A stretch of DNA of 22,793 nt. Origin: a virus. Under the pieces are notes generated by a model that saw only the letters and a program-made list of their open reading frames with translations, was not told where the DNA came from and did not search any database. A program made the translations under genes and the position numbers. How positions within the stretch are numbered: the first letter of the stretch is position 1; the number at the start of each line of letters is the position of its first letter. Shown one piece after another: positions 1 through 18,135 of this stretch. The stretch spans positions 1-22,793 of IMG/VR virus record IMGVR_UViG_3300042526_001530. One strand, written 5' to 3'.

Positions 1-268
1 CCAGGGGCTGCGCGCGCGCATCAAGCCGCGTGGCGGTGGCGATAGCGCTTTGATCGCACTGCCCGAGGAAGCGGTGCAAACCGTTGAAGGCAAGGAAGTC
101 GTGTTCGTCAAAACCGCCAAGGGTTTTCAGTCGACGACCGTCGTTACTGGCAAACGTGGCGGTGGCCGTATCGAGATTGTCGATGGACTGAAACCAGGTG
201 CCGTCGTCGTCACCAAGGGCGCGTTCATGCTCAAAGCCGAACTCGGCAAGGGCGAGGCGGAGCATTGA
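1..268 (+). CDS. czcB: RND efflux periplasmic adaptor subunit, CzcB/CusB type (C-terminal fragment)
   Basis: The reading frame is open from base 2 and stops at 266-268, so the gene enters from the left and only about 88 C-terminal residues are present. The visible part has the usual end of a heavy-metal membrane-fusion protein: an 'ALPEEAVQTVEGKEVVFVK' strand pair followed by a beta-rich membrane-proximal domain and a terminal 'KAELGKGEAEH'. Such adaptors bridge the inner-membrane RND pump and the outer-membrane channel in the periplasm. The stop is one base before the pump start, so the two are translated from one mRNA. The N-terminal barrel-sandwich and hairpin domains lie outside the window. 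CzcB rather than CusB is inferred from the downstream pump. Confidence 0.85.
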   Translation, partial: QGLRARIKPRGGGDSALIALPEEAVQTVEGKEVVFVKTAKGFQSTTVVTGKRGGGRIEIVDGLKPGAVVVTKGAFMLKAELGKGEAEH

Positions 269-269
269 T

Positions 270-3200
270 ATGATCGATAAACTTTTAGACGCGTCGATCC
301 GCTTCCGCTGGGGCGTGGTCATCCTGACGCTTATAATATCGGCTTACGGCCTGTCGGAGCTTTTGAAGCTGCCGATTGATGCCGTGCCCGACATCACCAA
401 CAAGCAGGTGCAGATCAACACGGTTGAACCCAATCTGGGGCCGCTCGACATCGAACGGCTCGTAACCTTTCCGGTTGAAACCGCGATGGCGGGGATTCCA
501 GGGCTTGAAACCTCACGCTCGATTTCGCGTAACGGTTTCAGCCAGGTCACGGTGATTTTCGAGGATCATACCGACCTCTATTTCGCCCGCCAGCAGGTAG
601 CCGAGCGGCTCAATCAGGCCAAAGGCACATTGCCCGAAGGGGCCGAGCCGCAAATGGGACCGGTCTCGACCGGCCTTGGCGAAGTCCTGATGTATACCAT
701 CGATTATGCAAAGGCCGGGACAAAAGAAAACCCGAAAGTTGCAGGCAAGCCGGGCTTCCAGCCGGATGGCTCATATATAACGCCGACCGGCGAAATCCTG
801 ACCGATGATGTTGCCAAGCTTGGCTATCTGCGCACCGTGCAGGATTGGGTTATCCGCCCGCAATTGCGTTCGGTGTCTGGCGTTGCCGGGATCGATTCGA
901 TTGGCGGTTATGAAAAACAATTTGTTGTTCAACCCGACGCTTCCAAACTTGCCACTTACGGCATTTCGTTTTCGGAGCTGGCCGAGGCCTTGGAAAAGGC
1001 CAACATCTCGGTAGGCGCAAACTTTGTCGAACGGGGCGGTGAGGCATTTCTCGTGCGCGCCGATGGCCGCATTCGAACAGTCGATGAAATATCCCGCGCT
1101 ACGGTCGCAAGCCGTGGCGGCGTTCCTGTCATGGTTGGCGATGTAGCTACGGTTAAGGTGGGAGGCGAACTGCGCACCGGGTCGGCGTCGGAAAACGGCA
1201 AGGAACTTGTGGTCGGAACTGTCCTGATGCTTGCGGACGGCAACAGTCGGCTTGTGGCTTCGGCGGCGGCTGAACGGCTTGCGGAAGTAGCAAAGTCGAT
1301 GCCGCCGGGTATCGTCGTGAAACCAGTGCTCAACCGCTCCGAACTCGTTGATGCCACCATCGGCACCGTCGAGAAGAACTTGGCCGAAGGTGCCTTGCTC
1401 GTTGCGGCAGTGCTTTTTTGGCTTCTTGGCAACTTCCGCGCTGCGGTCATCGCCACATTGGTCATCCCGATTTCATTCCTGATGATGGCGATGGGCATGA
1501 ATGCTACCGGCACGCCGGGTAACCTGATGAGCCTTGGCGCGCTCGATTTCGGTCTGATTGTCGATGGGTCGATCATCATCATCGAAAACTGTTTGAGGCG
1601 TCTTGCCGAGCGACAACATCACGAAGGGCGAATGCTCACGCTCACCGAACGCCTGCACGAGGTGTTCGAAGCGTCTCGTGAAATGGTGAAGCCGACTATT
1701 TACGGGCAGGCAATCATCTTCCTCGTGTTTGTGCCGTTGCTCACCTTTACCGGCGTTGAAGGTAAAACCTTCTCGCCGATGGCGATCACGGTCATGCTGG
1801 CACTTGCTGGCGCGTTCATTGCTTCGCTGACGTTCGTGCCTGCAATGGTTGCTTTGCTCATTCGCGGCGAAGTTGCCGAAAAGGACGTGAAGGCAATTGC
1901 TTGGGTCAAAACGCGTTACGAACCGGTATTGCAACGCGTCATTGCGCGTCCGTGGCCCTGGATTGGCGCAGGCGGCGGGACATTTGCCGCCGCCGCTCTT
2001 GTCTTCACTATGCTTGGTAGCGAGTTCATACCGGTGTTGGGCGAAGGCAATCTGGCAATGCAGGCGCTCCGCATTCCCTCAACCTCATTGAACAAGTCAC
2101 AGGAGATGCAGCTACAGGTAGAAAAAGCGGTTTCTGCGTTGCCTGAAGTTGCGTTCATCTACTCCAAAACCGGCACCGCAGAAGTGGCCAGCGACCCGAT
2201 GCCGCCGAACGCATCAGATACCTTCATCATTCTGAAGCCGCGCGAGGCATGGCCTGACGGCGTTGATACCAAAGATGAGGTCATCGAGCGCGTCGAAAAG
2301 GCATTGGAACCGTTGGTTGGCAACGCTTTTGAGATCAGCCAACCAATCCAGTTGCGCTTTAACGAGCTGATCGCTGGTGTGCGCGGCGATGTCGCCATCA
2401 AGATATATGGCGACAATCTCGATGAAATGGGCCGGACGGCAAATCAGGTGGCAGCCATTATTGGAACCGTTCCGGGTGCTGCCGACGTCAAGGTTGAACA
2501 AACGGCTGGTTTCCCGGTCCTTGATGTCCAGTTCGACCGTAACGCTATCGCACGCTATGGTTTAACGCTTCAGGATGTCAGCGACACCGTGTCTGCCGCT
2601 CTTGGCGGGCGCGAAGCTGGCATTGTGTTTGAAGGGGACCGGCGCTTCGACATCGTTGTCCGGCTTGACGGGGCAACGCGTGACGATCTCGATGCAGTAG
2701 GAGCGCTTCCAGTGCTGTTGCCCGGCGAAGGCGGCGCACGGTCCTCGGTGCCATTAAGTGAACTGGCCAAGTTCGGCTTCTCCGAAGGCCTAAACCAGGT
2801 CAGCCGCGAAAACGGCCAGCGCCGCGTTGTGGTGCAGGCCAATGTGCGCGGCAACGATCTGGGATCGTTTGTCGCCGAGGCGCAGGAGAAGGTAGACGCG
2901 CAAGTGAAACTGCCAACGGGCAGCTTCATCGAATGGGGCGGTCAGTTTGAAAATCTGCAAGCTGCTTCGGCACGGTTGTCGATAGTCATCCCGATCATCT
3001 TTGCCGCAATCTTCGGTATCCTGTTCATGGCCCTTGGCGGCGTGCGTCAGGCGATTGCGGTTTATTCCGCAATACCCTTGGCGCTTGCAGGCGGCGTGTT
3101 CGCGCTGCTGCTGACCGGATTACCGTTCTCGGTATCGGCGGCGGTCGGCTTCATCGTGCTTTCGGGTGTGACGGTGCTGAACGGACTAGTCGTGATGTCC

Positions 3201-3551
3201 AGCATCAACCAGCGCATAGACGAAGGCAAACCGATCGATACGGCAATTAGCGAAGGGACGATGGAGCGCGTTCGCGCGGTCCTCATGACCGGTATCGTTC
3301 CTGCCATCGGTTTTGTGCCGATGGCGATTGCGACCGGCGTCGGTGCCGAAGTGCAAAAGCCATTGGCGATTGTCGTGATCGGCGGGTTGATTACGTCGAC
3401 CTTGCTGACGCTTTTCGTGTTGCCTGCGATCAGTCATCTGTTGCTGCGCGGTCGCCATAAACAGCATGTTGCGGGCGATTACAGCGATGTGACAGCTACA
3501 GGAGAGCGGATGTTCGTGAGCGATGACGACAAAGGAGCTGAACCAGCATAA
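270..3551 (+). CDS. czcA: Heavy-metal RND efflux pump inner-membrane subunit, CzcA type (1093 aa)
   Basis: The ATG at 270 follows the adaptor stop by one base; an upstream in-frame GTG at 198 would overlap the adaptor by 70 bases and is rejected. The 1093-residue length fits the HME-RND family. It has an N-terminal membrane segment, a first periplasmic porter loop starting 'LPIDAVPDITNKQVQ', a central membrane bundle, a second porter loop and a C-terminal membrane bundle. The proton-relay/selectivity helix has DFGLIVDGSIIIIEN at residues 426-440; the DFG..VDG..EN pattern is that of divalent-cation pumps (Zn/Co/Cd/Ni), unlike monovalent CusA. Residues around 150-205 form an insertion in the first loop (rich in K, G, P). 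The protein drives proton-coupled export of metal from periplasm or cytoplasm through the CzcCBA complex. The exact metal range cannot be read from sequence. Confidence 0.92.
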   Translation: MIDKLLDASIRFRWGVVILTLIISAYGLSELLKLPIDAVPDITNKQVQINTVEPNLGPLDIERLVTFPVETAMAGIPGLETSRSISRNGFSQVTVIFEDHTDLYFARQQVAERLNQAKGTLPEGAEPQMGPVSTGLGEVLMYTIDYAKAGTKENPKVAGKPGFQPDGSYITPTGEILTDDVAKLGYLRTVQDWVIRPQLRSVSGVAGIDSIGGYEKQFVVQPDASKLATYGISFSELAEALEKANISVGANFVERGGEAFLVRADGRIRTVDEISRATVASRGGVPVMVGDVATVKVGGELRTGSASENGKELVVGTVLMLADGNSRLVASAAAERLAEVAKSMPPGIVVKPVLNRSELVDATIGTVEKNLAEGALLVAAVLFWLLGNFRAAVIATLVIPISFLMMAMGMNATGTPGNLMSLGALDFGLIVDGSIIIIENCLRRLAERQHHEGRMLTLTERLHEVFEASREMVKPTIYGQAIIFLVFVPLLTFTGVEGKTFSPMAITVMLALAGAFIASLTFVPAMVALLIRGEVAEKDVKAIAWVKTRYEPVLQRVIARPWPWIGAGGGTFAAAALVFTMLGSEFIPVLGEGNLAMQALRIPSTSLNKSQEMQLQVEKAVSALPEVAFIYSKTGTAEVASDPMPPNASDTFIILKPREAWPDGVDTKDEVIERVEKALEPLVGNAFEISQPIQLRFNELIAGVRGDVAIKIYGDNLDEMGRTANQVAAIIGTVPGAADVKVEQTAGFPVLDVQFDRNAIARYGLTLQDVSDTVSAALGGREAGIVFEGDRRFDIVVRLDGATRDDLDAVGALPVLLPGEGGARSSVPLSELAKFGFSEGLNQVSRENGQRRVVVQANVRGNDLGSFVAEAQEKVDAQVKLPTGSFIEWGGQFENLQAASARLSIVIPIIFAAIFGILFMALGGVRQAIAVYSAIPLALAGGVFALLLTGLPFSVSAAVGFIVLSGVTVLNGLVVMSSINQRIDEGKPIDTAISEGTMERVRAVLMTGIVPAIGFVPMAIATGVGAEVQKPLAIVVIGGLITSTLLTLFVLPAISHLLLRGRHKQHVAGDYSDVTATGERMFVSDDDKGAEPA

Positions 3552-3574
3552 GCGCGGGAACAGTTCATACCCGC

Positions 3575-3610
3575 TGTGAGACCGGAACCCAAATATGGGC
3601 CGGTCTCACA
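3575..3610. repeat. Perfect 11-bp inverted repeat (hairpin) between czcA and the P-type ATPase
   Basis: Arms TGTGAGACCGG (3575-3585) and CCGGTCTCACA (3600-3610) are exact complements. A further CCC/GGG pairing inside the 14-base loop (3588-3590 with 3597-3599) extends the stem. No U-run follows on either strand, so this is not a textbook terminator. It may be an mRNA-processing or attenuation hairpin that sets the ratio of czcA to ATPase expression. Confidence 0.6.
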
Positions 3611-3629
3611 AAACAGTTCAGTCGTAAGT

Positions 3630-3641
3630 TCAGTGCACTGA
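3630..3641. promoter_or_regulatory. 12-bp perfect palindrome upstream of the ATPase gene
   Basis: TCAGTGCACTGA is self-complementary and lies 43 bases before the ATPase GTG. The word AGTTCAGT also occurs twice (3616-3623 and 3627-3634). Its position suits an operator for a metal-responsive regulator, but no regulator gene is in the window and no clear -35/-10 pair was found. The operator role is inference. Confidence 0.35.
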
Positions 3642-3683
3642 CAACGATTGATTTGCTGCCCGATACTTTTTGAAGGAATATAT

Positions 3684-5612
3684 GTGATCAAAGCTGAAGC
3701 GCCGATTGAGACCCACACAGATGGTGACGGGCATGAACATGGTTCGGAGAATGGACTTGGGATTTTCGTCCTTGCCTGTATTTGTGCCGGGCTTGCTTAT
3801 TTGATTGGCGTATTGGTTCCGGCTTGGGGCGATTGGGCTTATGCCATTGGCGCACTCATTGCTGTTTTGCCGTTTGCAAAATCGGCTTTGGAAAAGGCCT
3901 TAAAAGGCAGGCCTTTCAGCATCGAAACGCTGGTCACGATTGCGGTTGTCGGTGCGCTGCCGATTGATGCAGGTGCCGAGGCAGTTGTTGTGGTCGCGTT
4001 GTTCTCGCTCGGCGAATTACTTGAAGGGTTCGCTGCTGCGCGTGCCCGTTCCGGGCTAACCGCCTTGGCGCAATTATTGCCGTCTGAAGCAACTATAGAA
4101 GTAGATGGTGAGCGCAAGACGGTTCCCGTCACGTCCTTGACCGTCAACATGGTGATGTTTGTTGCGCCCGGTGATCGTCTCGCAGCGGACGGAACAATCG
4201 TAGATGGCCGGTCTGATCTGAACGAGGCCGCGATTACGGGAGAATCGTCAGCGGTTGACAAGGGCATTGGCGCGCCAGTTTTTGCAGGCAGCATAAATGG
4301 CGATGGTCAACTCAAAGTGACCGTCACCAAGGATGCCAGCAACAGCGTCGTTGCCCGCATCGGTGATTTGGTAGCACAGGCCCAAGCCAGCACTGCTCCC
4401 ACCGCGCGTTTCATCGACAGTTTTAGCGCATATTATACGCCGGCTGCAATACTGATCGCAGCGCTCATCGCCGTAGTGCCCCCAATGCTTATGGGCGGTG
4501 AATGGTCAACATGGATATACCGTGCGCTCACGGTGTTGCTGATTGCATGTCCATGTGCACTGGTACTTTCAACACCTGCCGCCATTGCAACCGGAATCGC
4601 CACGGCTGCGCGGCACGGGATTCTTATCAAAAGCGGCGCAGCGCTAGAAATGCTTGCCAAGATCAAGATTGCCGCGTTCGACAAGACCGGAACGCTCACC
4701 TTGGGTCATCCGGTCGTCACCGATGTTGAAGGAGATGCAACCGAGGTTCTGAGACTTGCCGCAGCGGTCGAAACGGGTCTGTCCCACCCTGTCGCACGCG
4801 GCATCGTTGCCGAAGCTGTGGCAAAGGGCATTGAAATTCCCGGCGCTATTGACGTGGTCATCCGTCAGGGCGAAGGCGTTGAAGGCATTGTTGATGGCGT
4901 GAAGATCGCGCTGCTCAGCCCGCGTGCGTCGAAATCACTCACACCTGAAGTTATGACCCGCATTGATGCGCTCGAACGCGAGGGCAAAACGATTGCTGTG
5001 TTGTTTGCCGACACCAAATTTATCGGCATCATCGCCAGCCGGGATGAGCCGCGGACAGATTCAAAATCTGCGATTGCTGCGCTCACCGCACTCGGCATCA
5101 AATCCCTTATGCTCAGCGGCGATAATCAGCGGACTGCGACGGCGGTGGCAGCACCTCTCGGCATGGAGGCGGAAGGCGAACTCATGCCTGCTGATAAGCT
5201 TGACCGGATCGCTGCGCTAAAAGCTGAAATGCCGATTTTGATGGTTGGCGACGGGGTCAATGATGCACCGGCTCTGGCGACAGCTTCGCTGGGCCTCGCA
5301 ATGGGTGGCGGAACCGATGTTGCAATCGAGACTGCCGATGTCGGCCTCTTAAGGGATAGACTGCTGGCTGTTCCAGACGCCATCCGCTTAGCCCGCAAAA
5401 CACGTAGCACGATCATCGTCAACATTGTGCTCGCGGTTGGATTGAAGCTGGTTTTTCTTGTTCTGGCAGTATTTGGCATCACCAATTTGTGGACAGCAAT
5501 CATCGCAGATACGGGAGCCACGATTCTTGTGACGATCAACGCACTTTTGCTGTTCTGGACCTTCAAGCCCGCAGAAGACGTTAGCACTTCTAATACGGCA
5601 AAGGATATCTGA
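3684..5612 (+). CDS. zntA: Heavy-metal P1B-type ATPase, Zn/Cd/Pb class (642 aa)
   Basis: The GTG at 3684 is chosen because AAGGA (3673-3677) sits six bases upstream; the overlapping ATG at 3682 is followed at once by a stop. Domains in order: a short His/Asp/Glu-rich N-terminus (H-T-D-G-D-G-H-E-H) with no CxxC metal-binding domain, membrane helices, actuator TGES, the CPC metal site (C289-P-C291), phosphorylation motif DKTGTLT (Asp333), the SHP nucleotide-binding motif, GDGVNDAP, and final helices with 'GLKLVFLV' and 'ADTGATILVTINALLL'. CPC plus the Lys of the penultimate helix and Asp of the last helix is the P1B-2 (ZntA/CadA) signature. It pumps Zn2+/Cd2+/Pb2+ from cytoplasm to periplasm, feeding the Czc pump. 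Loss of the usual N-terminal CxxC domain in favour of a His-rich tail is a known variant. Confidence 0.92.
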   Translation: MIKAEAPIETHTDGDGHEHGSENGLGIFVLACICAGLAYLIGVLVPAWGDWAYAIGALIAVLPFAKSALEKALKGRPFSIETLVTIAVVGALPIDAGAEAVVVVALFSLGELLEGFAAARARSGLTALAQLLPSEATIEVDGERKTVPVTSLTVNMVMFVAPGDRLAADGTIVDGRSDLNEAAITGESSAVDKGIGAPVFAGSINGDGQLKVTVTKDASNSVVARIGDLVAQAQASTAPTARFIDSFSAYYTPAAILIAALIAVVPPMLMGGEWSTWIYRALTVLLIACPCALVLSTPAAIATGIATAARHGILIKSGAALEMLAKIKIAAFDKTGTLTLGHPVVTDVEGDATEVLRLAAAVETGLSHPVARGIVAEAVAKGIEIPGAIDVVIRQGEGVEGIVDGVKIALLSPRASKSLTPEVMTRIDALEREGKTIAVLFADTKFIGIIASRDEPRTDSKSAIAALTALGIKSLMLSGDNQRTATAVAAPLGMEAEGELMPADKLDRIAALKAEMPILMVGDGVNDAPALATASLGLAMGGGTDVAIETADVGLLRDRLLAVPDAIRLARKTRSTIIVNIVLAVGLKLVFLVLAVFGITNLWTAIIADTGATILVTINALLLFWTFKPAEDVSTSNTAKDI

Positions 5613-5613
5613 C

Positions 5614-6540
5614 ATGGGCGCGGGACATAATCACGGCGATCAGGGACATGGTTCTCCAGGCCACAGTCATACCAATGGCGCCAACACGCGTAGTCTGGCG
5701 ATTGCGCTCAGTCTTACCGGCAGCTTTCTCATCGCAGAGCTTGTTGGCGCATATTGGTTCAACAGCCTCGCGCTGCTGTCCGATGCCGCTCACATGTTCA
5801 CTGATGCCGCCGCACTCGCCATTGCGCTCGTCGCTGTGCGAATTGGACAGCGGTCCGCAGATGCACAGCGAACCTATGGCTATCGCCGCTTCGAGATATT
5901 AGCCGCAGCGTTCAACGCAGTGCTGCTGTTCGTGGTCGCGGGTTATGTGCTGATTGAGGGCATCGGTCGTTTCTTCGACCCCAAGCCGGTTGAATCTGTC
6001 GGGATGCTGACGGTCGCGACCATCGGACTTGTTGTGAACCTCATTTCTATGCGGGTATTGGCGGGCGGAAAAGATGACAGCCTCAACGTCAAAGGAGCCT
6101 ATCTTGAAGTGTGGGCTGATATGCTCGGCTCGCTCGGCGTGATCGCAGCGGCAGTTGCCATCTATCTGACCGGCTATAACTGGATTGATCCAATTGTTGC
6201 TATCGGTATCGGCCTGTGGGTGTTGCCGCGTACTTGGGTCTTGCTTCGCGATACAACCCACATCCTCTTGCAAGGCGTCCCTCGCGGGTTCGACCTGAAA
6301 GCGATCCGCGCGGCAATAAATGAAGCCGCGGGCGTCGCGGGCGTGCATGATCTTCATTTGTGGTCGGTTGCCGGTGATGACGCCAGCCTGACCGCCCATG
6401 TCGCATTAGCCGACGGAGCCGATGCCGAAGCCACACGTCGCGCTCTTGCAGAAATGCTCGAAAGCAGGTTCGCCATCCACCATGCCACGATCCAGACCGA
6501 AACCGCTCCTTGTGGAGATGCAGGGTCAATGCATGGCTGA
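5614..6540 (+). CDS. czcD: Cation diffusion facilitator, CzcD/ZitB type (308 aa)
   Basis: The ATG at 5614 comes one base after the ATPase stop, so it is the last gene of the same operon. The N-terminus is His-rich (H5, H7, H12 and more), typical of Zn-type CDF proteins. Six hydrophobic segments follow, with the helix-2 metal site SDAAHMFTD near residue 58 and the helix-5 site 'YLEVWADMLGS' (E165, D169), and a cytoplasmic C-terminal domain 'VHDLHLWSVAGDDASLTAHV' characteristic of the family. It is an antiporter that exchanges cytoplasmic Zn2+/Co2+/Cd2+ for H+. In czc systems CzcD moderates induction by keeping cytosolic metal low. Confidence 0.92.
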   Translation: MGAGHNHGDQGHGSPGHSHTNGANTRSLAIALSLTGSFLIAELVGAYWFNSLALLSDAAHMFTDAAALAIALVAVRIGQRSADAQRTYGYRRFEILAAAFNAVLLFVVAGYVLIEGIGRFFDPKPVESVGMLTVATIGLVVNLISMRVLAGGKDDSLNVKGAYLEVWADMLGSLGVIAAAVAIYLTGYNWIDPIVAIGIGLWVLPRTWVLLRDTTHILLQGVPRGFDLKAIRAAINEAAGVAGVHDLHLWSVAGDDASLTAHVALADGADAEATRRALAEMLESRFAIHHATIQTETAPCGDAGSMHG

Positions 6541-7024
6541 TGCGTAAGGATATGTGGAAAATGTTGCGAAGTTGATCTGCTATCGAAATTTACATGCGGA
6601 TCAAAGCGACAGGAATTAGATGCGCAGTTGGCATTCCGGCCGGAGTTGAGCGAATGGGTGTTTATTGCGCCACTGGTCCTGAAAGCTGCCTGTCCCGATC
6701 ATCCAGCAAGTCAGCCATATCAATCTTGCCCATGCAATGTCCGCTTATGGGGGAGCCAGCTGGCGCTTTTGTTAACTGTAGTTGGGCGCTTTGCCGACCT
6801 TCTGCTTTCCTCTCGGGGATTGACCGCTTTCGATTAGATACGACGTTCAATGAAGCCAATCTGGGCGACCGGGTCTGGTCGGCAGCAGAAGTTCACGATG
6901 AGACGTCCGCATGTCTGCTACCACAGCTTCAAGTCCCCTAAGCTGCCTTTTCGGTCAGTCGAACATCACGGACATGGTGCTTGTCGCAACCTCCAAGCTG
7001 CTCAAGATTGCGGCGGTCTATACA
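6541..7024. other. Gene-poor stretch; probable location of the left prophage boundary
   Basis: About 480 bases with no reading frame that has a credible start signal and protein-like composition. Open frames exist on both strands (6594-6941 plus, 6662-6859 minus) but neither shows a recognisable motif. No tRNA-like sequence was seen. The boundary between host metal operon and prophage must lie here or just beyond, but an attachment core cannot be identified without the right end of the prophage. It may also hold a decayed gene remnant. Confidence 0.5.
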
Positions 7025-8746: not shown

Positions 8747-8941
8747 GTGCAACCCGTCTTTCTTGCTCAACGTGACCTTGCCGTTCGCTGGCATATGTCA
8801 CCCCGAACCCTCGAACGCTGGCGTTGGTCCGGCAAGGGGCCAGCCTTTGTGAAACTCGGCGGCCGGGTGGTCTACCGCCTGGAAGTGATCGAGACCTTCG
8901 AAGCCGAAGGCAACCGCACCATCACCGGGCGGTTCCAATGA
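8747..8941 (+). CDS. Small helix-turn-helix protein, MerR/excisionase (HTH_17) type (64 aa)
   Basis: The GTG at 8747 has GGAGA (8736-8740) six bases upstream. The 64 residues fold as one DNA-binding domain: 'LAVRWHMSPRTLERWRWSGKGPAFVKLGGRVVYRLEVIETF' gives the helix-turn-helix (SPRTLERWR) and the wing with 'GGRVVYR', typical of AlpA/Xis-like regulators. Its stop overlaps the next start (ATGA at 8938-8941), so it is coupled to the nuclease gene. It could be an excisionase or an early regulator acting on the ATCCCACC cluster just upstream; neither is shown. An alternative frame from 8535 reads through the repeats and has no such motif. Confidence 0.8.
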   Translation: MQPVFLAQRDLAVRWHMSPRTLERWRWSGKGPAFVKLGGRVVYRLEVIETFEAEGNRTITGRFQ

Positions 8942-9726
8942 CAAACGCCTTCGAACGCCACGGGCTTGACCACCTCTCGGCCTCCTCCATCAACCTGTTC
9001 GTCGCCCAGCCGGCGATGTGGGCAATGCAGAAGCTCCTCGGGCACAAGTCCCGGGTTGGCGCGGCAGCCCACCGCGGCACGGCTGTCGAAGCGGGTGTCG
9101 AGATGGGGCTGTTTGACCCAAATCTTCCGCTCGAGGATTGCCAAGAAGCAGCAAGCGCCAGGTTCAACCAGCTGACCGCATTGTCGGCGGATCCCAATGT
9201 CGAGAAGGAACGCGCAGGCATTGCTTCGGCCGTTGCGATCGCGCTCGGCGAGCTGCGCCAATACGGCATTCCCGGCTCTGCGGACGGCACCCGCCAGCAT
9301 CGGATCGAGGTGGAACTGCCCGGTGTGCCGGTACCTTTCATCGGCTGGCTCGACTTTTGGTATCCGGACCACGGCATCATCATCGATCTGAAGACCCAAG
9401 GGCGCCTGTCCTCGAAGATCTCCGATCCCCATGCCCGGCAGGGCGCGATCTATCACGCTGCCCATGGCAACAACGAGATCCGCTTCGCCTACGTCACGCC
9501 CCAAAAGATCGGCGTCTACCGGCTGGAGGATCCGCGCACGCACATCGCCCGCGTGGTCAGTATCGCCCGGTCCATCGAGCGGTTCCTGAGCCTGTCGGAT
9601 GACGGCGCTGAACTGACTGCCGCGCTCTCACCTGATCTCGACAGCTTCTACTGGAACGATCCCGGCTCGCGCGCGGCGGCTGAAGAAATCTGGGGCCTCG
9701 CCCCCGAGGCTATGCCGCAGGCCTGA
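8938..9726 (+). CDS. PD-(D/E)XK nuclease, RecB-like phage exonuclease (262 aa)
   Basis: The ATG at 8938 overlaps the upstream stop (ATGA). The protein carries the RecB-family nuclease core in order: 'AAAHRGTAVEAG' (H45, E51), 'GWLDFW' (D139), 'IIIDLKTQG' (D150, K152) and the motif 'RQGAIYHAA' (Q168, Y172). These are the metal-binding and catalytic residues of PD-(D/E)XK exonucleases related to Cas4/RecB. In phages, such enzymes resect DNA ends for recombination or break down host DNA. The neighbouring gene at 9764 would be the natural place for a single-strand-binding or annealing partner. There are no signs of truncation. Confidence 0.85.
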   Translation: MTNAFERHGLDHLSASSINLFVAQPAMWAMQKLLGHKSRVGAAAHRGTAVEAGVEMGLFDPNLPLEDCQEAASARFNQLTALSADPNVEKERAGIASAVAIALGELRQYGIPGSADGTRQHRIEVELPGVPVPFIGWLDFWYPDHGIIIDLKTQGRLSSKISDPHARQGAIYHAAHGNNEIRFAYVTPQKIGVYRLEDPRTHIARVVSIARSIERFLSLSDDGAELTAALSPDLDSFYWNDPGSRAAAEEIWGLAPEAMPQA

Positions 9727-9763: not shown

Positions 9764-10390
9764 ATGGGTTTTATGTCTGTCCCGTCGTCTGGCGGGGATT
9801 TCAAGGTGTTCGTCGCCTACAATGCGAAGGCCGGTCGCTGGTACACGAAGAATGACGGCAAGGATGAGCCGATGTTCGAGGTGACCGACATGACTGCGGT
9901 CTTCGATATGCCCAATCTCGAGACCGGCTGGTTCAAGTTCAGTTCTGGCGTCGCCCCGGAAAAGGTCATGGATCCCTCGCTGGCAGAAGCTGCTCCCAAT
10001 CCGGGGACGGACTTCAAGCGCGGGTTCCAAATCGATCTGTATTCCGAGAAGAACCTGATGGGACTGCGGGAGTTCAGCTCGACCGCAGCGATTGTCATCG
10101 AGGCGATGAACAACCTCTATGATCTCTGGATGGCTGCTCCCGAAAATGTGTCGGGCAAGCTGCCGGTGGTCCGATGTTCGGGTGTGCTACCGATCTCAAA
10201 CAAGCACGGCACCAACTACCAGCCGACTTTCGAGATCGTGGGCTGGACTGATCGGCCGGCCGCTCTCGCCGGGAGTGGGGCATCCCCTCCGCCAGCTGCC
10301 GCATCTGCACAGGCCGCGCCTCAGCCGCCGGCACAGCATATGCCGCCGCCCGCGGCTGGTAGCGCGAAGGTCGGCGCGCCGGTGTTCTGA
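9764..10390 (+). CDS. Phage early protein of unknown function; candidate ssDNA-binding protein (208 aa)
   Basis: The ATG at 9764 follows a purine-rich leader with AGGA nine bases upstream. Residues 1-165 are a compact mixed beta/alpha domain rich in aromatic residues ('FKVFVAYNAKAGRWY', 'ETGWFKFSSG'). Residues 166-208 are a low-complexity Ala/Pro/Gln tail ending G-A-P-V-F. A globular domain plus flexible tail with a terminal Phe, placed between a RecB-like nuclease and a primase/helicase, is what one expects of a single-strand-binding or annealing protein. The tail is not acidic as in true SSB, and no family signature is recognised, so this is only a positional guess. Confidence 0.7.
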   Translation: MGFMSVPSSGGDFKVFVAYNAKAGRWYTKNDGKDEPMFEVTDMTAVFDMPNLETGWFKFSSGVAPEKVMDPSLAEAAPNPGTDFKRGFQIDLYSEKNLMGLREFSSTAAIVIEAMNNLYDLWMAAPENVSGKLPVVRCSGVLPISNKHGTNYQPTFEIVGWTDRPAALAGSGASPPPAAASAQAAPQPPAQHMPPPAAGSAKVGAPVF

Positions 10391-10396
10391 TCGCCA

Positions 10397-10424
10397 ATGC
10401 CGGGCTGCTTAGGTGGTCCGGCAT
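10397..10424. repeat. Short hairpin between the 9764 gene and the primase gene
   Basis: Arms ATGCCGG (10397-10403) and CCGGCAT (10418-10424) are exact complements. No U-run follows. It lies in a 109-base gap that otherwise contains C-rich sequence and a small palindrome AGGGG-T-CCCCT (10441-10451). A weak attenuator is possible. Confidence 0.35.
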
Positions 10425-10499
10425 CCCCCACCCGTCCCCCAGGGGTCCCCTAGCCGGATCCCACTCCCATCTCCCGTTCAGAAAGTGGTCCTGGCCGCC

Positions 10500-12518
10500 A
10501 TGGCGCGTCGTATTGAAACCGGCAGCATCGACATTGACGCGATCAAGGACCAGTTCCCTCTGGCCGACGAGGTGCGCCGTCATCTCCCGCTGAAGCGCCG
10601 CGGCGCAACGCTGGTCGGCCTTTGCCCCTTCCATATGGAGCGGACGCCCTCTTTCGCGGTCTATCCCGATGAACAGCGCTTCCACTGTTTCGGTTGCGGC
10701 GCGCACGGTGACATCTTCGATTTCCTCGAGGCCCAGGAAGGGCTGGATATTCGCGCGGCCGCCGAGCGGCTGACGGGCGGCAACTTCCCGGTCATGTCGG
10801 AGGCGCGTGTCGCTGAGCTTCGGGCGCGGCAAGCGCGCTTCGAGGCCGAGCAGGCCGAGCGTCGCAAGCTCGCCGCTGACCAGATGCGTCTGCGCTGGGC
10901 TGGCGCTGATCCCACCTATTCATCCCACCCCTATCTCACGGCCAAGGGTATTGGGCCGGCGGGCACGCGGCTGGACCGCGAGCACATCCTCGTGCCGCTG
11001 TTCGATGCTGGCGGCGAGCTCACCTCGCTGCAGTCGATCGACCCGGCCGGCTACAAGCTGTTCGAGGCAGAGCTCCCGGTCGCAGGCTCTGCGTTTGTCA
11101 TGGGCACGCCGATTCCCATGACCAAAGCCCCGGTGCTCGTCTGCGAGGGTTTTGCCACCGGTGCATCGCTCCATGAATCGACTGGCCGTACCGTCGTGGT
11201 CACCTTCAATGCCGGGAACCTGACAAAGGTTGCCGAGCGGCTAGTCGCGGCGTTTCCCAGGACCCGCTGGATCGTTGCCGGCGACGATGATCGGCACAAG
11301 GCGCCCAATGTCGGCCGCGAGGCTGCGGGCAAAGCTGCTGAGCTCCTTCGCTGCGAGGCCGTGTTCCCAGTATTCCCCCAAGGCCACCTCGGCACCGACT
11401 TCAACGACATGGCCCAGCTTTCTGGGCACGAAGCAGTCGCGGCTCTGTTTGCCGCTAGCGCCGGTCCCGACGTGTTCGAGACCCTCAGTCTCGATGAGCT
11501 TGTCAACATGCCGGCGCCCACATGGCTGATCGACGGGCTCATCCCCCAGCATGGTCTGGTCCTGCTGTATGGCCGGCCGGGTGAGCACAAGACCTTCATC
11601 GCCGTCGATGGATCCTTGCGCGTTGCCTACGGCCTCGACTGGCACGGCCGTGCCGTCAAACGCGTCGGCGTTCTCTACATTGCCGGCGAAGGCCGGTTCG
11701 GGATCGGGCAGCGCATCAAGGGCTGGCGCAAGAAGCATGGCCTTGCCGGTGTCGATGCGCCATTCAAGCTGCTGCCGGTCGCGGTCCACATGCTGGATCC
11801 CGCCAATGTCGAGAAGCTGAAGCGCACGATCGATCAGGTGCGCGAAGAGGTCGATTTCGAGATCGGGATGGTCGTCATCGACACCGTCTCGCGCGCCATC
11901 CCTGGTCAGGACGAGAACAGCCAGGAAGCGATGTCGCTGTTCGTCGATGCGTGCGCTGAGATCCAGAACCACTGCGGCGGCGTCGTCATCGGCATCCACC
12001 ATTCGGGCAAGGACGCTGACCGCGGCATGCGCGGGTCCACCGTGCTGCTCGGCGGCTGCGATACGGCCATCCGGGTTGCCAAGGAGGAGAATCACACCGT
12101 CCTCTCGGTCGAGAAGCAGAAGGACGGCGAAGAGATCGAGGACGTCCATTTCACGATGGAGGTCGTCGACATCACCAGCGGTCTCGGCAAGGAACAGAGC
12201 ACGCTGGTCCCCTTGATCGGGGCAGGTGCAACGCCGGCTGCCGAGAAGCGCCTCAGCTGGCACCAGATCCGCGAGATCTTCAAATTGATCGACGATGCCT
12301 GGCGCGAGGGCGCACCCTGGTCGGTCTTCCCGCACGCCCGCCGCAAGGGACGTTTCGCGGTCGATCTCATCTCTGATCAATACGGCGTCACCAAGCGCGA
12401 GGCCGAGACCTCGATCACCAAGTGGCAGCAGAATGGCTACCTCGTCACCGAGGCTGGAAAGTTCCACGGCAAGGCCTCTGGTCTCAGGGTCGTCAAGTAC
12501 CTGGAGCCCGACCGATGA
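10500..12518 (+). CDS. Phage primase/helicase: CHC2 zinc finger, Toprim and RecA-like AAA_25 ATPase (672 aa)
   Basis: The ATG at 10500 is preferred to an upstream GTG at 10413, whose added residues are Pro/Ser-rich and encode part of a hairpin. Order of domains: CHC2 zinc ribbon with C42, H45, C63, C66 ('CPFHMERTPSF', 'FHCFGCGAHGD'); Toprim catalytic region with 'VCEGFATGASL' and 'VAGDDDR'; RecA-fold ATPase with Walker A GRPGEHKT (358-365), Walker B 'MVVIDT' and 'GIHHSGKDADRGMRGST'; then a C-terminal winged-helix-like region. It combines primer synthesis and DNA unwinding as in T7 gp4 or P4 alpha. The Walker A has His in place of the last Gly, a variation tolerated in RepA-like ATPases. An iteron-like array sits directly downstream. 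Confidence 0.88.
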   Translation: MARRIETGSIDIDAIKDQFPLADEVRRHLPLKRRGATLVGLCPFHMERTPSFAVYPDEQRFHCFGCGAHGDIFDFLEAQEGLDIRAAAERLTGGNFPVMSEARVAELRARQARFEAEQAERRKLAADQMRLRWAGADPTYSSHPYLTAKGIGPAGTRLDREHILVPLFDAGGELTSLQSIDPAGYKLFEAELPVAGSAFVMGTPIPMTKAPVLVCEGFATGASLHESTGRTVVVTFNAGNLTKVAERLVAAFPRTRWIVAGDDDRHKAPNVGREAAGKAAELLRCEAVFPVFPQGHLGTDFNDMAQLSGHEAVAALFAASAGPDVFETLSLDELVNMPAPTWLIDGLIPQHGLVLLYGRPGEHKTFIAVDGSLRVAYGLDWHGRAVKRVGVLYIAGEGRFGIGQRIKGWRKKHGLAGVDAPFKLLPVAVHMLDPANVEKLKRTIDQVREEVDFEIGMVVIDTVSRAIPGQDENSQEAMSLFVDACAEIQNHCGGVVIGIHHSGKDADRGMRGSTVLLGGCDTAIRVAKEENHTVLSVEKQKDGEEIEDVHFTMEVVDITSGLGKEQSTLVPLIGAGATPAAEKRLSWHQIREIFKLIDDAWREGAPWSVFPHARRKGRFAVDLISDQYGVTKREAETSITKWQQNGYLVTEAGKFHGKASGLRVVKYLEPDR

Positions 12519-12715
12519 GCCCAAAAATCGAGTTGTCGGAAGCAGTCGGAAGCACGGAAATGCGTCAGTCGGAAGCTTGTCGGAAGCCGTCGGAAGCACG
12601 GTCGCAAGCAGTCGGAACGCGCAGTCGCTTCCCCCCCACACCCCCTAAGGGCTTCCGACTGCGCTTCAGGCGCGTCGTCAGCCTCCACTTTAGCGAAGAA
12701 AGGAGGGGCGCATGA
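12515..12715 (+). CDS. Small ORF coupled at both ends to its neighbours (66 aa, uncertain)
   Basis: Its ATG overlaps the primase stop (ATGA at 12515-12518) and its own stop overlaps the next start (ATGA at 12712-12715), the pattern used throughout this early operon. The product is basic, with Ser-Glu-Ala repeated where the DNA carries GTCGGAAGC repeats, then a Pro-rich and Arg-rich end. No domain is recognised. The open frame may be a side effect of a DNA repeat array rather than a selected protein. A translated spacer keeping ribosomes moving to the next gene is another possibility. Confidence 0.4.
   Translation: MSPKIELSEAVGSTEMRQSEACRKPSEARSQAVGTRSRFPPTPPKGFRLRFRRVVSLHFSEERRGA
12535..12662. 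repeat. Iteron-like array of GTCGGAAGC
   Basis: Five exact copies of the 9-mer start at 12535, 12545, 12568, 12579 and 12589. Variants GTCGCAAGC (12601) and GTCGGAACG (12611) follow, and one exact inverted copy lies at 12651-12659. Most starts are 10-12 bases apart, i.e. about one helical turn. GCAGTCGGAA (12608-12617) and TTCCGACTGC (12653-12662) also form a 10-bp inverted repeat. Placement right after the primase/helicase gene suggests a replication origin or an operator; this is inference. Confidence 0.7.
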
Positions 12716-13254
12716 AAGGCGCGCCACCGACCCGCCATGCGCAGATCAGCGACATGCAGGTCATCATCAAATGTGTCGACCAGCGCGGTCGTGAAATGGA
12801 CGAGCGCTGGGGCATCGGGCGTTTGCCCATGCTGGTGCCGATCGAGTGGGCTGAACGCTTCCACGCACAGCACAAGCTGTTCAACGCTGCGGTCTGGGAG
12901 TTCCATCTTCCGTTGGTGCGCCAGCATGGCGAGGCGATGCTGCGGGCATACGACAAGCTCGATGAGCTCGCTCGCGGTGCCAAGGGCGAACCTCTGCCGG
13001 TCGACCAGTGGGAGTTCGAGACGCCTGATGGCCTGGTCATTCTGGTAAGGGATCTTCGCGATACCGGCAGGGCTCAGCGTCATGGCCGGGAGGCACAGGT
13101 CTGGGCGCTCGACGAGATCGCGAATGTGATCCGCTGCCACCCCATCCTGGCCGCAGCCAAGAACGCCTTCCCTGGCGCGCAGGTCGTGAGTGTCCGCCCC
13201 AGCAAGACAACCCTAGCCGAGCTCGATGACGAGCTTTCGGACATCCCGTTCTGA
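12712..13254 (+). CDS. Hypothetical phage early protein with an SSB-like C-terminal tip (180 aa)
   Basis: The ATG at 12712 has AGGAGG (12701-12706) five bases upstream, the strongest ribosome site in the region. The body is mixed alpha/beta with a long helical middle ('LPLVRQHGEAMLRAYDKLDELARG') and does not look like an OB fold. The last residues, E-L-D-D-E-L-S-D-I-P-F, closely copy the acidic, Pro-Phe-ended tip of bacterial SSB (D-D-D-I-P-F), the docking peptide for PriA, RecO, RecG, RecQ, ExoI and the clamp loader. It may recruit or compete for host SSB partners. The family is not recognised. Confidence 0.75.
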   Translation: MKGAPPTRHAQISDMQVIIKCVDQRGREMDERWGIGRLPMLVPIEWAERFHAQHKLFNAAVWEFHLPLVRQHGEAMLRAYDKLDELARGAKGEPLPVDQWEFETPDGLVILVRDLRDTGRAQRHGREAQVWALDEIANVIRCHPILAAAKNAFPGAQVVSVRPSKTTLAELDDELSDIPF

Positions 13255-13384: not shown

Positions 13385-13921
13385 ATGGATGTTTCGACTT
13401 TGCCTGCGCCTCCGCGCAGCGCAACCCCGGCTGCGAGGCGCGTGACAGTGATGCGCGGATCCCTTCTGGCCCTTGATCTCGGCACCAGCACTGGCTGGGC
13501 GCTGAGGACCGCTGACGACTACACGTCCAGCGGCACCGTATTGCTAAAGAACACTCGCTTCGATGGTGGCGGCATGCGCTTCCTGCGTTTCCGGCGCTGG
13601 CTGGAAGATCTCGATCAGGACGCTGGGCCGATCGAGGCGATCTACTTCGAAGAGGTCCGGCGTCATGCCGGTACCGATGCCGCCCACATCTACGGCGGTC
13701 TGCTCGCAGTCCTATCGGCTTGGTGCGAAGAGCACCTCGTTGCCTACCAGGGCGTGCCGGTGGGAACCATCAAGCGATTTGCCACGGGAAAGGGTAATGC
13801 CGACAAGGCCGCAGTAATCGATGCGATCCGTTCCCGTGGCTTTGCGCCTCGGGATGACAACGAGGCTGACGCACTCGCCATCCTGCTTTGGGCCATTGAA
13901 ACCCGGGGAGGTGTGCGATGA
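13385..13921 (+). CDS. RuvC-like Holliday-junction endonuclease of phage type (178 aa)
   Basis: The ATG at 13385 has GGAG (13374-13377) seven bases upstream. The frame is open back to 13226, but that extension encodes the 13-bp inverted repeat and overlaps the previous gene. RNase-H-fold motifs: 'LLALDLGTSTGWAL' (first catalytic Asp), 'IYFEEVRRH' (Glu), and 'DDNEADALAILLWA' (terminal Asp pair). The helix 'DKAAVIDAIRSRG' and a segment with 'GTIKRFATGKGNADK' are typical of RuvC relatives. It would resolve branched recombination or replication intermediates before packaging. Its stop overlaps the next start. Confidence 0.82.
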   Translation: MDVSTLPAPPRSATPAARRVTVMRGSLLALDLGTSTGWALRTADDYTSSGTVLLKNTRFDGGGMRFLRFRRWLEDLDQDAGPIEAIYFEEVRRHAGTDAAHIYGGLLAVLSAWCEEHLVAYQGVPVGTIKRFATGKGNADKAAVIDAIRSRGFAPRDDNEADALAILLWAIETRGGVR

Positions 13922-15104: not shown

Positions 15105-15116
15105 AGGGCGTTTGGA

Positions 15117-15383
15117 ATGGCCGAACGGCTCCGGGGGCGAGCGGCAGTTGTTCAGCGGTTGCGCCGCCTTCGCGCCGAACCCCTCTGCCGGGATTGTGCT
15201 CGCGCCGGGATAGTGCGCGAGGCGAAGGTGCCTGACCACATCGTCCCGCTTGCCCACGGCGGATCGGACGAGGACAGCAACATCCGCTGCCTTTGCTCCG
15301 AGTGCCACGCCAAGCGGACTGCCGAACAATTCGGCCAGCGCAGGACGGTCGCCGTAGGGCCCGACGGGTGGCCGATCGGGTAA
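15117..15383 (+). CDS. HNH endonuclease of HK97-type packaging module (88 aa)
   Basis: The ATG at 15117 has a weak AGGG upstream. The zinc ribbon C-x2-C ('LCRDCARAG') and 'CLCSECHAKRT' bracket the catalytic stretch 'DHIVPLAHGGSDEDSN', which contains the HNH His and Asn. Small HNH proteins placed next to the terminase genes are needed with TerL for cos cleavage in HK97-like phages. Here, unlike the usual layout, 2.7 kb of other genes separate it from the small terminase. The length is typical and all metal ligands are present. Confidence 0.87.
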   Translation: MAERLRGRAAVVQRLRRLRAEPLCRDCARAGIVREAKVPDHIVPLAHGGSDEDSNIRCLCSECHAKRTAEQFGQRRTVAVGPDGWPIG

Positions 15384-16172: not shown

Positions 16173-17462
16173 ATGACACAATGGCCAGCTGATCAGGTCG
16201 AGCGCAGAAGCGTATCGGCACTCGTGCCCTATGCCCGCAACGCCCGCACTCACAGCGAAGAGCAGGTGGCACAGATTGCCGCCTCGATCCGTGAATGGGG
16301 CTGGACGGTGCCGGTTCTAATGGATGAGGACGGCGGGCTGATCGCTGGCCACGGCAGGGTGCTGGCCGCCCGTAAACTGGGCCTTGCCGAGATTCCGGTG
16401 ATGTTAGCCAAAGGTTGGAGCGAGGCCCAGAAGAAGGCTTATGTGATAGCCGACAATAAGTTGGCATTGAACGCTGGTTGGGATCTTGAACTCTTGGCAG
16501 TTGAATTGGAGGATCTGCAAGGCCTCGACTTCGACCTAATGCTGACGGGTTTTTCCGACAATGAACTGCAAGGGTTACTAGCCCAAAGTAGTGAAGGTTT
16601 GACGGATCCCGACACCGTCCCTGATTTGCCGCAGACGCCTGTTTCAGTGCCGGGTGATGTTTGGATTATGGGCGATCATCGTCTTGTATGCGGCGATAGC
16701 ACTGTCCAGACTGATGTCGACAAGCTGATGCAGGGTGAGCTTGGTGATATGTTGTTCACCGATCCACCTTGGAATGTAAATTATGGCGCGGTCAAAGCAG
16801 GCAATGCGCAAGGATATAAACCCCGTAAAATCCTGAACGATCATATGGACGAAGCCAAGTGGTGCGAATTTGTAAGCGGGTTTTGTGCCTCATTCTATGT
16901 CGTTACGAAACCTGGCGCGCTGGCTTACGTTGTGATGAGCGCTCAGGAATGGCCCGCAATAGACAAGGGTTTGCGCGATGCGAAGTTTCATTGGTCGTCG
17001 ACGATCATCTGGGTGAAGGACGCACTCGTTCTCTCCCGCAAGGACTATCACACGCAGTACGAACCCTTGTGGTATGGATGGAACGAAGACGGACCGCGGA
17101 TCATGCATGTGCCAGACCGCAAGCAGTCTGATATCTGGAACATTCCTAGGCCGAGGGTCTCTGACCTGCATCCGACCACGAAACCGACGCAATTAATCGA
17201 ACGCGCGCTATTAAACTCTTCTGCTCGCGGCGCTTTGGTGGTCGATCTATTTGGAGGATCAGGCTCAACGTTGATCGCTTGTGAACAGCAGGGCAGGCGA
17301 TGCCGGTTGATGGAGTTGGACCCCAAATACGTCGATGTGATTGTTAAACGTTGGCAGGATTTTACGGGAAAGAAAGCGATCCATGAAGCTGATGGCCGAA
17401 CGTTTAATGAAATCGCCGGAAAAGAACCCGCGCCCGTTTCCAGTGAATGCGCAACGGCCTAA
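16173..17462 (+). CDS. Orphan DNA methyltransferase with N-terminal ParB-like domain, beta class (429 aa)
   Basis: The ATG at 16173 follows GGAGA by four bases. Residues 8-110 form a ParB/Srx-like domain ('VPYARNARTHSEEQVAQIA', 'GLIAGHGRVLAARKLGL'). A methylase follows with catalytic DPPW (197-200) and, later, the AdoMet motif FGGSGST (360-366); catalytic motif before AdoMet motif is the beta-class order. It methylates an amino group of adenine or cytosine in a specific site, unknown here. No restriction nuclease is next to it, so it is an orphan phage methylase, likely protecting phage DNA or altering gene control. Base composition appears more AT-rich than the early genes, consistent with separate acquisition. 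Confidence 0.9.
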   Translation: MTQWPADQVERRSVSALVPYARNARTHSEEQVAQIAASIREWGWTVPVLMDEDGGLIAGHGRVLAARKLGLAEIPVMLAKGWSEAQKKAYVIADNKLALNAGWDLELLAVELEDLQGLDFDLMLTGFSDNELQGLLAQSSEGLTDPDTVPDLPQTPVSVPGDVWIMGDHRLVCGDSTVQTDVDKLMQGELGDMLFTDPPWNVNYGAVKAGNAQGYKPRKILNDHMDEAKWCEFVSGFCASFYVVTKPGALAYVVMSAQEWPAIDKGLRDAKFHWSSTIIWVKDALVLSRKDYHTQYEPLWYGWNEDGPRIMHVPDRKQSDIWNIPRPRVSDLHPTTKPTQLIERALLNSSARGALVVDLFGGSGSTLIACEQQGRRCRLMELDPKYVDVIVKRWQDFTGKKAIHEADGRTFNEIAGKEPAPVSSECATA

Positions 17463-17473
17463 GATGCTTAGGC
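17457..17473. terminator. Symmetric hairpin holding the stop codons of two convergent genes
   Basis: GCCTAAG (17457-17463) and CTTAGGC (17467-17473) pair exactly around a 3-base loop. The methylase stop TAA (17460-17462) lies in one arm and the antitoxin stop (17468-17470, minus strand) in the other. It can form in both transcripts, so it may limit read-through both ways, although no U-run follows. Confidence 0.5.
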
Positions 17474-17770
17474 AGCAGCCAGAACCCTATCAACAATAAT
17501 GTCATCGGCATGGGCGCGGGCTTGAGCCAAGTCATACGATGTCTGCATGCGCATCAGCGTATCAGCTTTTATACCAAAAGCCTTCTCGAACCTGATCGCC
17601 ATTTCAGCGGAAAGGGCCGTGTGGCCGTTGAAAAGATTGCTGAGTGTCTGGCGCGTTACGTGAAAGCAGGTTGCGAGGTGATTGATGCTAACGCCGTGCG
17701 GAACGACTACTTCGGTTTTCAGCCAATCACCGGGGTGAACAGCTAGCGAGGGGTGCATGATTATAGCCAT
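17468..17770 (-). CDS. higA: HigA/VapI-type antitoxin (100 aa)
   Basis: This is the second gene of the second toxin-antitoxin pair on the minus strand; its start shares one base with the toxin stop (TGATG). An alternative start is the Met four residues later. The helix-turn-helix 'HPGDWLKTEVVVPHGVSINHLATCFHVTRQTLSNLFNG' and 'AEMAIRFEKAFGIKADTLMRMQ' match the HigA/VapI class, different from the antitoxin at 15483. It should bind both the toxin and the tandem palindromes at 18064-18101. Length is normal. Confidence 0.88.
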   Translation of the reverse strand: MAIIMHPSLAVHPGDWLKTEVVVPHGVSINHLATCFHVTRQTLSNLFNGHTALSAEMAIRFEKAFGIKADTLMRMQTSYDLAQARAHADDIIVDRVLAAA

Positions 17771-18054
17771 CAGTGGTAATCCTCCATATCAAGTTCAGCA
17801 ATTGTCGCTTCATCAATCTTGATGAAGGTCAGACGCCAGTTTTTTGTCACGGTCATTGCCCAGTGCCCGGCCTTGTCGCCAACCAGTTCGTGCAACCCAT
17901 AATTCGGAGGCACGGCCAGTTCGTTAAAACTTGCTGCTGCATCAATAAAAGCCAGCATCTTGCGGATCCGTGCTGTGTCACCCACCAAGCCTTTTGCGTT
18001 GCCGGTTTCGAAAAACCTTCGCAGCCCTTTGTGGGTTATACTTTCGATATCCAT
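17770..18054 (-). CDS. higB: HigB-type mRNA interferase toxin (94 aa)
   Basis: The start at 18054 is preferred over the ATG at 18069 because the latter lies inside the operator and the predicted promoter places transcription start at 18054. The sequence 'ITHKGLRRFFETGNAKGL', 'ARIRKMLAFIDAAASFNEL', 'GLHELVGDKAGHWAMTVTKNWRLTF' and 'DMEDYH' is the HigB (RelE superfamily) pattern with its usual C-terminal D-Y-H. It would cut mRNA on the ribosome. Together with the downstream antitoxin it is a complete type II module, of a different family from the pair at 15483-16111. No degradation is visible. Confidence 0.88.
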   Translation of the reverse strand: MDIESITHKGLRRFFETGNAKGLVGDTARIRKMLAFIDAAASFNELAVPPNYGLHELVGDKAGHWAMTVTKNWRLTFIKIDEATIAELDMEDYH

Positions 18055-18059
18055 AGAGC

Positions 18060-18101
18060 CATATGTCAAACATCATTTGACATGTCAAAGGGTATTTGAC
18101 G
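18060..18101 (-). promoter_or_regulatory. Tandem palindromic operator and promoter of the second HigBA pair
   Basis: Two adjacent 19-bp palindromes share the form TGTCAAA-N5-TTTGACA: 18064-18082 (exact) and 18083-18101 (last base differs). The central TTTGACATGTCAAA (18076-18089) is itself a perfect palindrome. On the minus strand TTGACA (18088-18083) is a consensus -35, followed after 17 bases by CATATG (18065-18060). Transcription would then begin at or next to the toxin ATG. Antitoxin binding would cover the whole promoter. Confidence 0.75.
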
Positions 18102-18135
18102 ATTCCGAAGCGCGATGCGGCACAGGAGCCTTCCT

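Follow-up and report, generated by a model that had tools for sequence, protein, structure and literature searches.

We describe P0001, a 180-amino-acid phage protein whose C-terminal end combines two host-like peptides, one resembling the C-terminus of the clamp-loader subunit tau (DnaX) and one resembling the tip of bacterial single-stranded-DNA-binding protein (SSB). The protein is encoded on the plus strand at positions 12712–13254 of the window, by which we mean the whole 22,793-nucleotide stretch at positions 1 to 22,793 of IMG/VR virus record IMGVR_UViG_3300042526_001530. We propose that P0001 typifies an undescribed family of phage proteins that may act as a replisome adaptor. We judge this role plausible but just short of probable; all of the binding that it involves, and the recruitment itself, are inferred. 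The original prediction, made from the sequence alone, read the protein as an SSB mimic; that reading is incomplete, leaving out the tau-like segment, an adjacent iteron array, the phage's own gp32-like SSB, and relatives whose tails are extended or do not end in Pro-Phe (PF).

Sequence, predicted fold and relatives of P0001

The gene is preceded by a Shine–Dalgarno sequence, AAGGAGG (12700–12706, plus strand), five bases 5′ of the ATG, and its translation ends in ...TLAELDDELSDIPF, the last residues being LDDELSDIPF. AlphaFold2 modelling with a 56-sequence input gave a mean pLDDT of 86.7, with helices at residues 8–33, 44–62, 66–91, 133–142 and 144–151 and strands at 99–104, 107–112 and 128–132. 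An N-terminal three-helix bundle with a WGxxRLxxLV motif (residues 8–91; 12733–12984, plus strand; pLDDT mostly above 90) includes W33, G34, R37, V42 and A87, which are invariant across 56 aligned family rows, and may be a site of contact with phage replication proteins. It is followed by a small alpha/beta part (residues 99–142; 13006–13137, plus strand). Model confidence is low for residues 150–180, which are likely to be flexible.

The model agrees with the original prediction that the body does not look like an OB fold. It consists of a helical bundle and an alpha/beta part with no beta barrel, and no Pfam SSB or OB domain matches the sequence; we therefore reject the idea that P0001 is a divergent SSB. 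Comparison of the model with the PDB by Foldseek and VIA-align returned generic helical bundles only, with no specific relative and no convincing match to a DNA-binding fold, and a sequence search of the PDB returned no match. Weak Pfam matches to Endostatin, ArAE_1_C and PhyH were discarded as noise.

The family is widespread among environmental phages, and our searches of Pfam, PHROGs and NCBIfam found no description of it. An initial scan of IMG/VR recovered 36 close and middle relatives; further ones were reached through profiles, and a scan with a distant-clade profile yielded 202 confirmed relatives. Genome contigs held another eight, with copies in Sphingomonadales genomes, and in Caenibius one relative lies on a 38-kb phage-like plasmid. 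Searching genomes across the order Sphingomonadales placed P0001 in 2 of 396, both known before, along with one weak partial match, a distribution that points to a sparse prophage gene rather than a host gene. Searches of the INPHARED phage records by tblastn, in which the window protein and four of its relatives served as queries, detected no relative. PHROGs gave no match for P0001 itself and only single-member weak matches for its relatives, and NCBIfam gave no credible match. A Foldseek search of BFVD returned 13 good matches, including A0A6J7XNJ8 and A0A6J5MLA2 (best E value 2.5e-12; 12–31% identity). These phage proteins share the predicted fold of P0001, and the BFVD entries carry no assigned function: 12 are uncharacterised or unnamed, and the thirteenth, A0A6J5NZ37, is named a terminase small subunit, which is probably an error.

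Two host-like peptides at the C-terminus

P0001 ends in the acidic tip DDELSDIPF (residues 172–180; 13225–13251, plus strand), which the original prediction had likened to the SSB tip. The likeness is borne out by the hosts themselves, whose SSBs end in LDDDIPF or LDDDVPF: four Sphingomonadales genomes that carry the protein encode SSB tips DDLDDDIPF, VDLDDDVPF, NDLDDDVPF and DDLDDDIPF, so that the final DIPF of P0001 is identical to two of the four. As in the bacterial SSB C-terminus (DDDIPF), acidic residues and then a hydrophobic residue, Pro and Phe stand at the extreme end of the chain, after a variable linker. The proteins differ in what carries this tip, an OB body in SSB and a helical body in the small phage protein.

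To count tips, we took the distinct open reading frames (ORFs) from all fetched loci and scored an [ILMV]P[FW] end with at least three D/E in the preceding nine residues. Such an end was present in 63 of 108 P0001-family ORFs versus 0 of 12,774 non-family ORFs, placing the tip far beyond chance. We followed its evolution on a tree of 56 diverse rows built from the protein minus its last 18 residues. Of these rows, 27 end in PF or PW, and they fall on both deep branches. In seven rows, at seven separate places in the tree, one to three extra residues come after PF, and 22 have no PF end. The members of a 17-row clade (support 99/97) end mostly in GF, DVG, DLG or similar. In lineages whose tails have been rewritten (L093, L146, L109 and L159), the new C-terminus is again GDDIPF, GDEIPF or NDEIPF. 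These comparisons indicate that selection acts on the tip in the greater part of the family. The original reading of an SSB-like tip on a non-OB body is correct, but strict mimicry of the SSB tip is not universal, one clade having mostly lost the tip and seven lineages running a few residues past the Phe. The pattern that the original prediction named as refuting it, a kept body with a freely varying tail, is seen in only part of the family, mainly the 17-row clade and the seven rows with short extensions. Known SSB-tip pockets bind the terminal carboxylate (PMC10164576); with residues added past the Phe in some lineages and a clade mostly without PF, a strict free-terminal-carboxylate motif does not hold family-wide. 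Bacterial SSB tips differ from the P0001 family in this respect.

Upstream of the tip, residues 144–162 (PILAAAKNAFPGAQVVSVR; 13141–13197, plus strand) resemble the C-terminus of tau in Pfam and hhalign comparisons. Pfam DUF3646 (PF12362), the C-terminal domain of alphaproteobacterial tau, matches P0001 weakly (E=0.013, 16.2 bits against a curated cut-off of 30.2), and the match covers positions 79–114 of 114, short of a whole-domain match. In a profile–profile comparison by hhalign with 38 collected alphaproteobacterial tau C-termini, the P0001 family scored 44.7 (P 1.1e-6), compared with 26.3 for the best of 78 real unrelated phage families from the same loci and a maximum of 22.5 over 150 column shuffles. 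Multiplying this P value by roughly 25,000 Pfam families gives about 0.03 matches expected by chance. The window clade (P 1.9e-7), the distant clade (P 2.7e-6) and the clade that has mostly lost the tip (P 3.8e-6) each align to tau at the same place. The segment shared with tau reads P-x-[VI]...F-P-G-A-x-[VI]..V-R, and its core pattern occurs in 78 of 112 family ORFs and 34 of 38 tau proteins, as against 0 of 13,069 other ORFs. The resemblance is short, about 20–45 residues, and could reflect a short linear motif that converged on tau without binding the polymerase III subunit alpha.

In E. coli tau, the last 22–25 residues bind alpha, and their deletion leaves negligible binding (PMC4703070, PMC11470591). 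The shared segment lies at the flexible end in tau, as it does in P0001, and this is the alpha-binding place of E. coli tau (PMC4703070). P0001 matches only the last third of that domain, and the AAA+ clamp-loader part of DnaX is absent from it. We considered whether the acidic tip is simply part of a tau-like tail and rejected this, because none of the tau tails in the 38 genomes has a PF end. Many of these tails are acidic all the same, and one host alphaproteobacterial tau (L189) carries EDDMDDIHPF near, not at, its C-terminus.

P0001 could instead be an SSB mimic through its tip alone, recruiting or sequestering host SSB-interacting proteins, with the resemblance to tau a coincidence. The conservation of the tip, its match to host SSB and the rebuilding of tails in extended lineages all speak for this, and since a PF end is absent from all 39 listed phage SSB-like neighbours, the missing docking peptide could come from P0001. 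We nevertheless regard it as unlikely: the 144–162 segment is commoner than the tip across the family and is retained even where the tip has gone, and the 17-row clade, mostly without PF, keeps both the P0001 gene and its module.

A candidate link between phage primase-helicase and host replicase

The original prediction placed P0001 in a replication operon, and we found a conserved replication module around the gene. It comprises a PD-(D/E)XK nuclease (8824–9726), a phage SSB-like protein with a gp32-like OB body and a P/A-rich tail (9764–10390), a primase-helicase with CHC2 zinc finger, Toprim and AAA_25 domains (10413–12518), which is the usual upstream gene, then iterons and P0001. The downstream gene encodes a RuvC-like resolvase (13386–13921; its ORF is listed from 13226, with the likely start at 13386), and all of these genes lie on the plus strand. 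The SSB assignment comes from the AlphaFold2 model of the 9764–10390 product (pLDDT 84.5), whose best VIA-align matches were a phiC31 integrase–RDF fusion, RB69 and T4 gp32, and other ssDNA-binding proteins. The Z scores are modest (6.9 down to 3.0), and we make the call because the matches agree in kind. We searched 32 long records of relatives, some of which may be fragments, for DNA polymerases of families A, B and C and found none.

T7 gp2.5 and T4 gp32 are phage replication proteins with acidic C-terminal tails, a feature shared with P0001, and the 9764–10390 product is of their kind. P0001 differs from them in having no OB body and a tip nearer that of bacterial SSB. Relatives of the gp32-like protein have a P/A-rich tail and an acidic tip, DDEDFG or DDVEF, which the window's clade has lost (GAPVF), whereas the P0001 tip is strictly kept. 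The acidic tips that this adjoining SSB has in relatives speak for an internal contact, in which the acidic–aromatic tail of P0001 would be of the general phage kind and would bind the phage primase-helicase, or compete for the DNA groove of the phage SSB, rather than bind host proteins. An acidic–aromatic patch would also accommodate the seven lineages that tolerate residues past PF better than a carboxylate-anchored tip would. The tip, however, matches the host SSB and not the phage SSB tail (DIPF versus DDEDFG), and the new ends of the extended lineages are again D-[DE]-I-P-F. We accordingly give this reading little credence.

The gap that separates the primase-helicase from P0001 contains an iteron array (12535–12659), which is probably the phage origin. 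A repeat search identified five direct copies of GTCGGAAGC, at 12535, 12545, 12568, 12579 and 12589, and one inverted copy at 12651–12659. In 29 of 38 relatives, against 2.8 expected, no repeat cluster anywhere in the locus is stronger than the one in this gap. The iteron cores drift from relative to relative (GTCGGAAGC, GGCGGAAGC, TGCGGAAGT and GCGGAGGT). GC skew does not shift sharply at the iterons, which neither supports nor refutes the origin reading, and Rfam and tRNA searches of the whole window returned nothing. In most loci the array directly follows the primase-helicase stop, starting within about 100 bases of it, and it stays near the primase-helicase in L093, L141 and L159 although P0001 is 0.5–2.9 kb distant; this makes the primase-helicase a likelier iteron binder than P0001. 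That P0001 is itself a lambda O-like initiator, binding the iterons upstream of its own gene to start replication, is improbable: the array adjoins its gene, occupies the upstream gap in those 29 loci and is nearer P0001 than the primase-helicase in L112, L104 and L135, but its usual attachment to the primase-helicase stop and the failure of structure comparison to find a known DNA-binding fold in the P0001 model argue against it.

We return to the adaptor reading. Without a polymerase, a phage that brings its own helicase, primase, SSB and origin has to capture the Pol III of its host. In phages that seem to be polymerase-less, P0001 would be made beside the putative iteron origin, together with the phage primase-helicase and phage SSB. 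Anchorage to the primase-helicase, the phage SSB or the origin would come from its folded helical body, host Pol III alpha would be held through the C-terminal domain of alpha by residues 144–162, and the tip would dock host proteins that bind SSB tips, for example chi, primase or PriA. In this way, phage forks driven by a non-DnaB helicase would come to be loaded with the host polymerase. Recruitment of this sort fits the context better than stripping of host forks, for which we found no specific support. A sharper version, which we hold more tentatively, is that a polymerase-less phage family encodes a free-standing minimal stand-in for tau, whose alpha-binding peptide and SSB-type tip would link the host replicase to the primase-helicase working at an iteron origin.

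Replicase capture by phages with a helicase-primase but no polymerase is known for few cases. In SPP1, the G40P helicase recruits host DnaX (PMC5615212), so that a phage's own helicase works with the host replicase at a phage origin, as proposed here. The arrangement differs in that the SPP1 helicase binds host DnaX, whereas P0001, a separate protein, would itself carry the DnaX-like polymerase-binding peptide. A non-exhaustive literature search turned up no phage tau C-terminus mimic or SSB-tip mimic of the P0001 kind. If our proposal is correct, copying the end of tau and the tip of SSB into one small protein would be a simple, general answer to replicase capture, and P0001 would offer a compact probe of two kinds of contact that are of interest as antibacterial targets, alpha–tau and SSB-tip.

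Remainder of the window

The left part of the window (198–6540) encodes an AcrB/CzcA-type RND pump, a metal P-type ATPase and a cation-diffusion transporter. In close phage relatives the match to the window begins only at about position 7023, and so this part looks like host chromosome, with the prophage edge near 7,020; the exception is L037, which matches from 5725. The same relative, 97% identical to the window, has about 216 extra bases at 15107–15126, a clean small indel in a stretch without an assigned gene. Further to the right, about 650 bases of lower GC content (about 0.52) with no convincing gene (17463–18114) precede the terminase small subunit, directly after a DNA methyltransferase with a ParB-like N-terminal domain (16173–17462).
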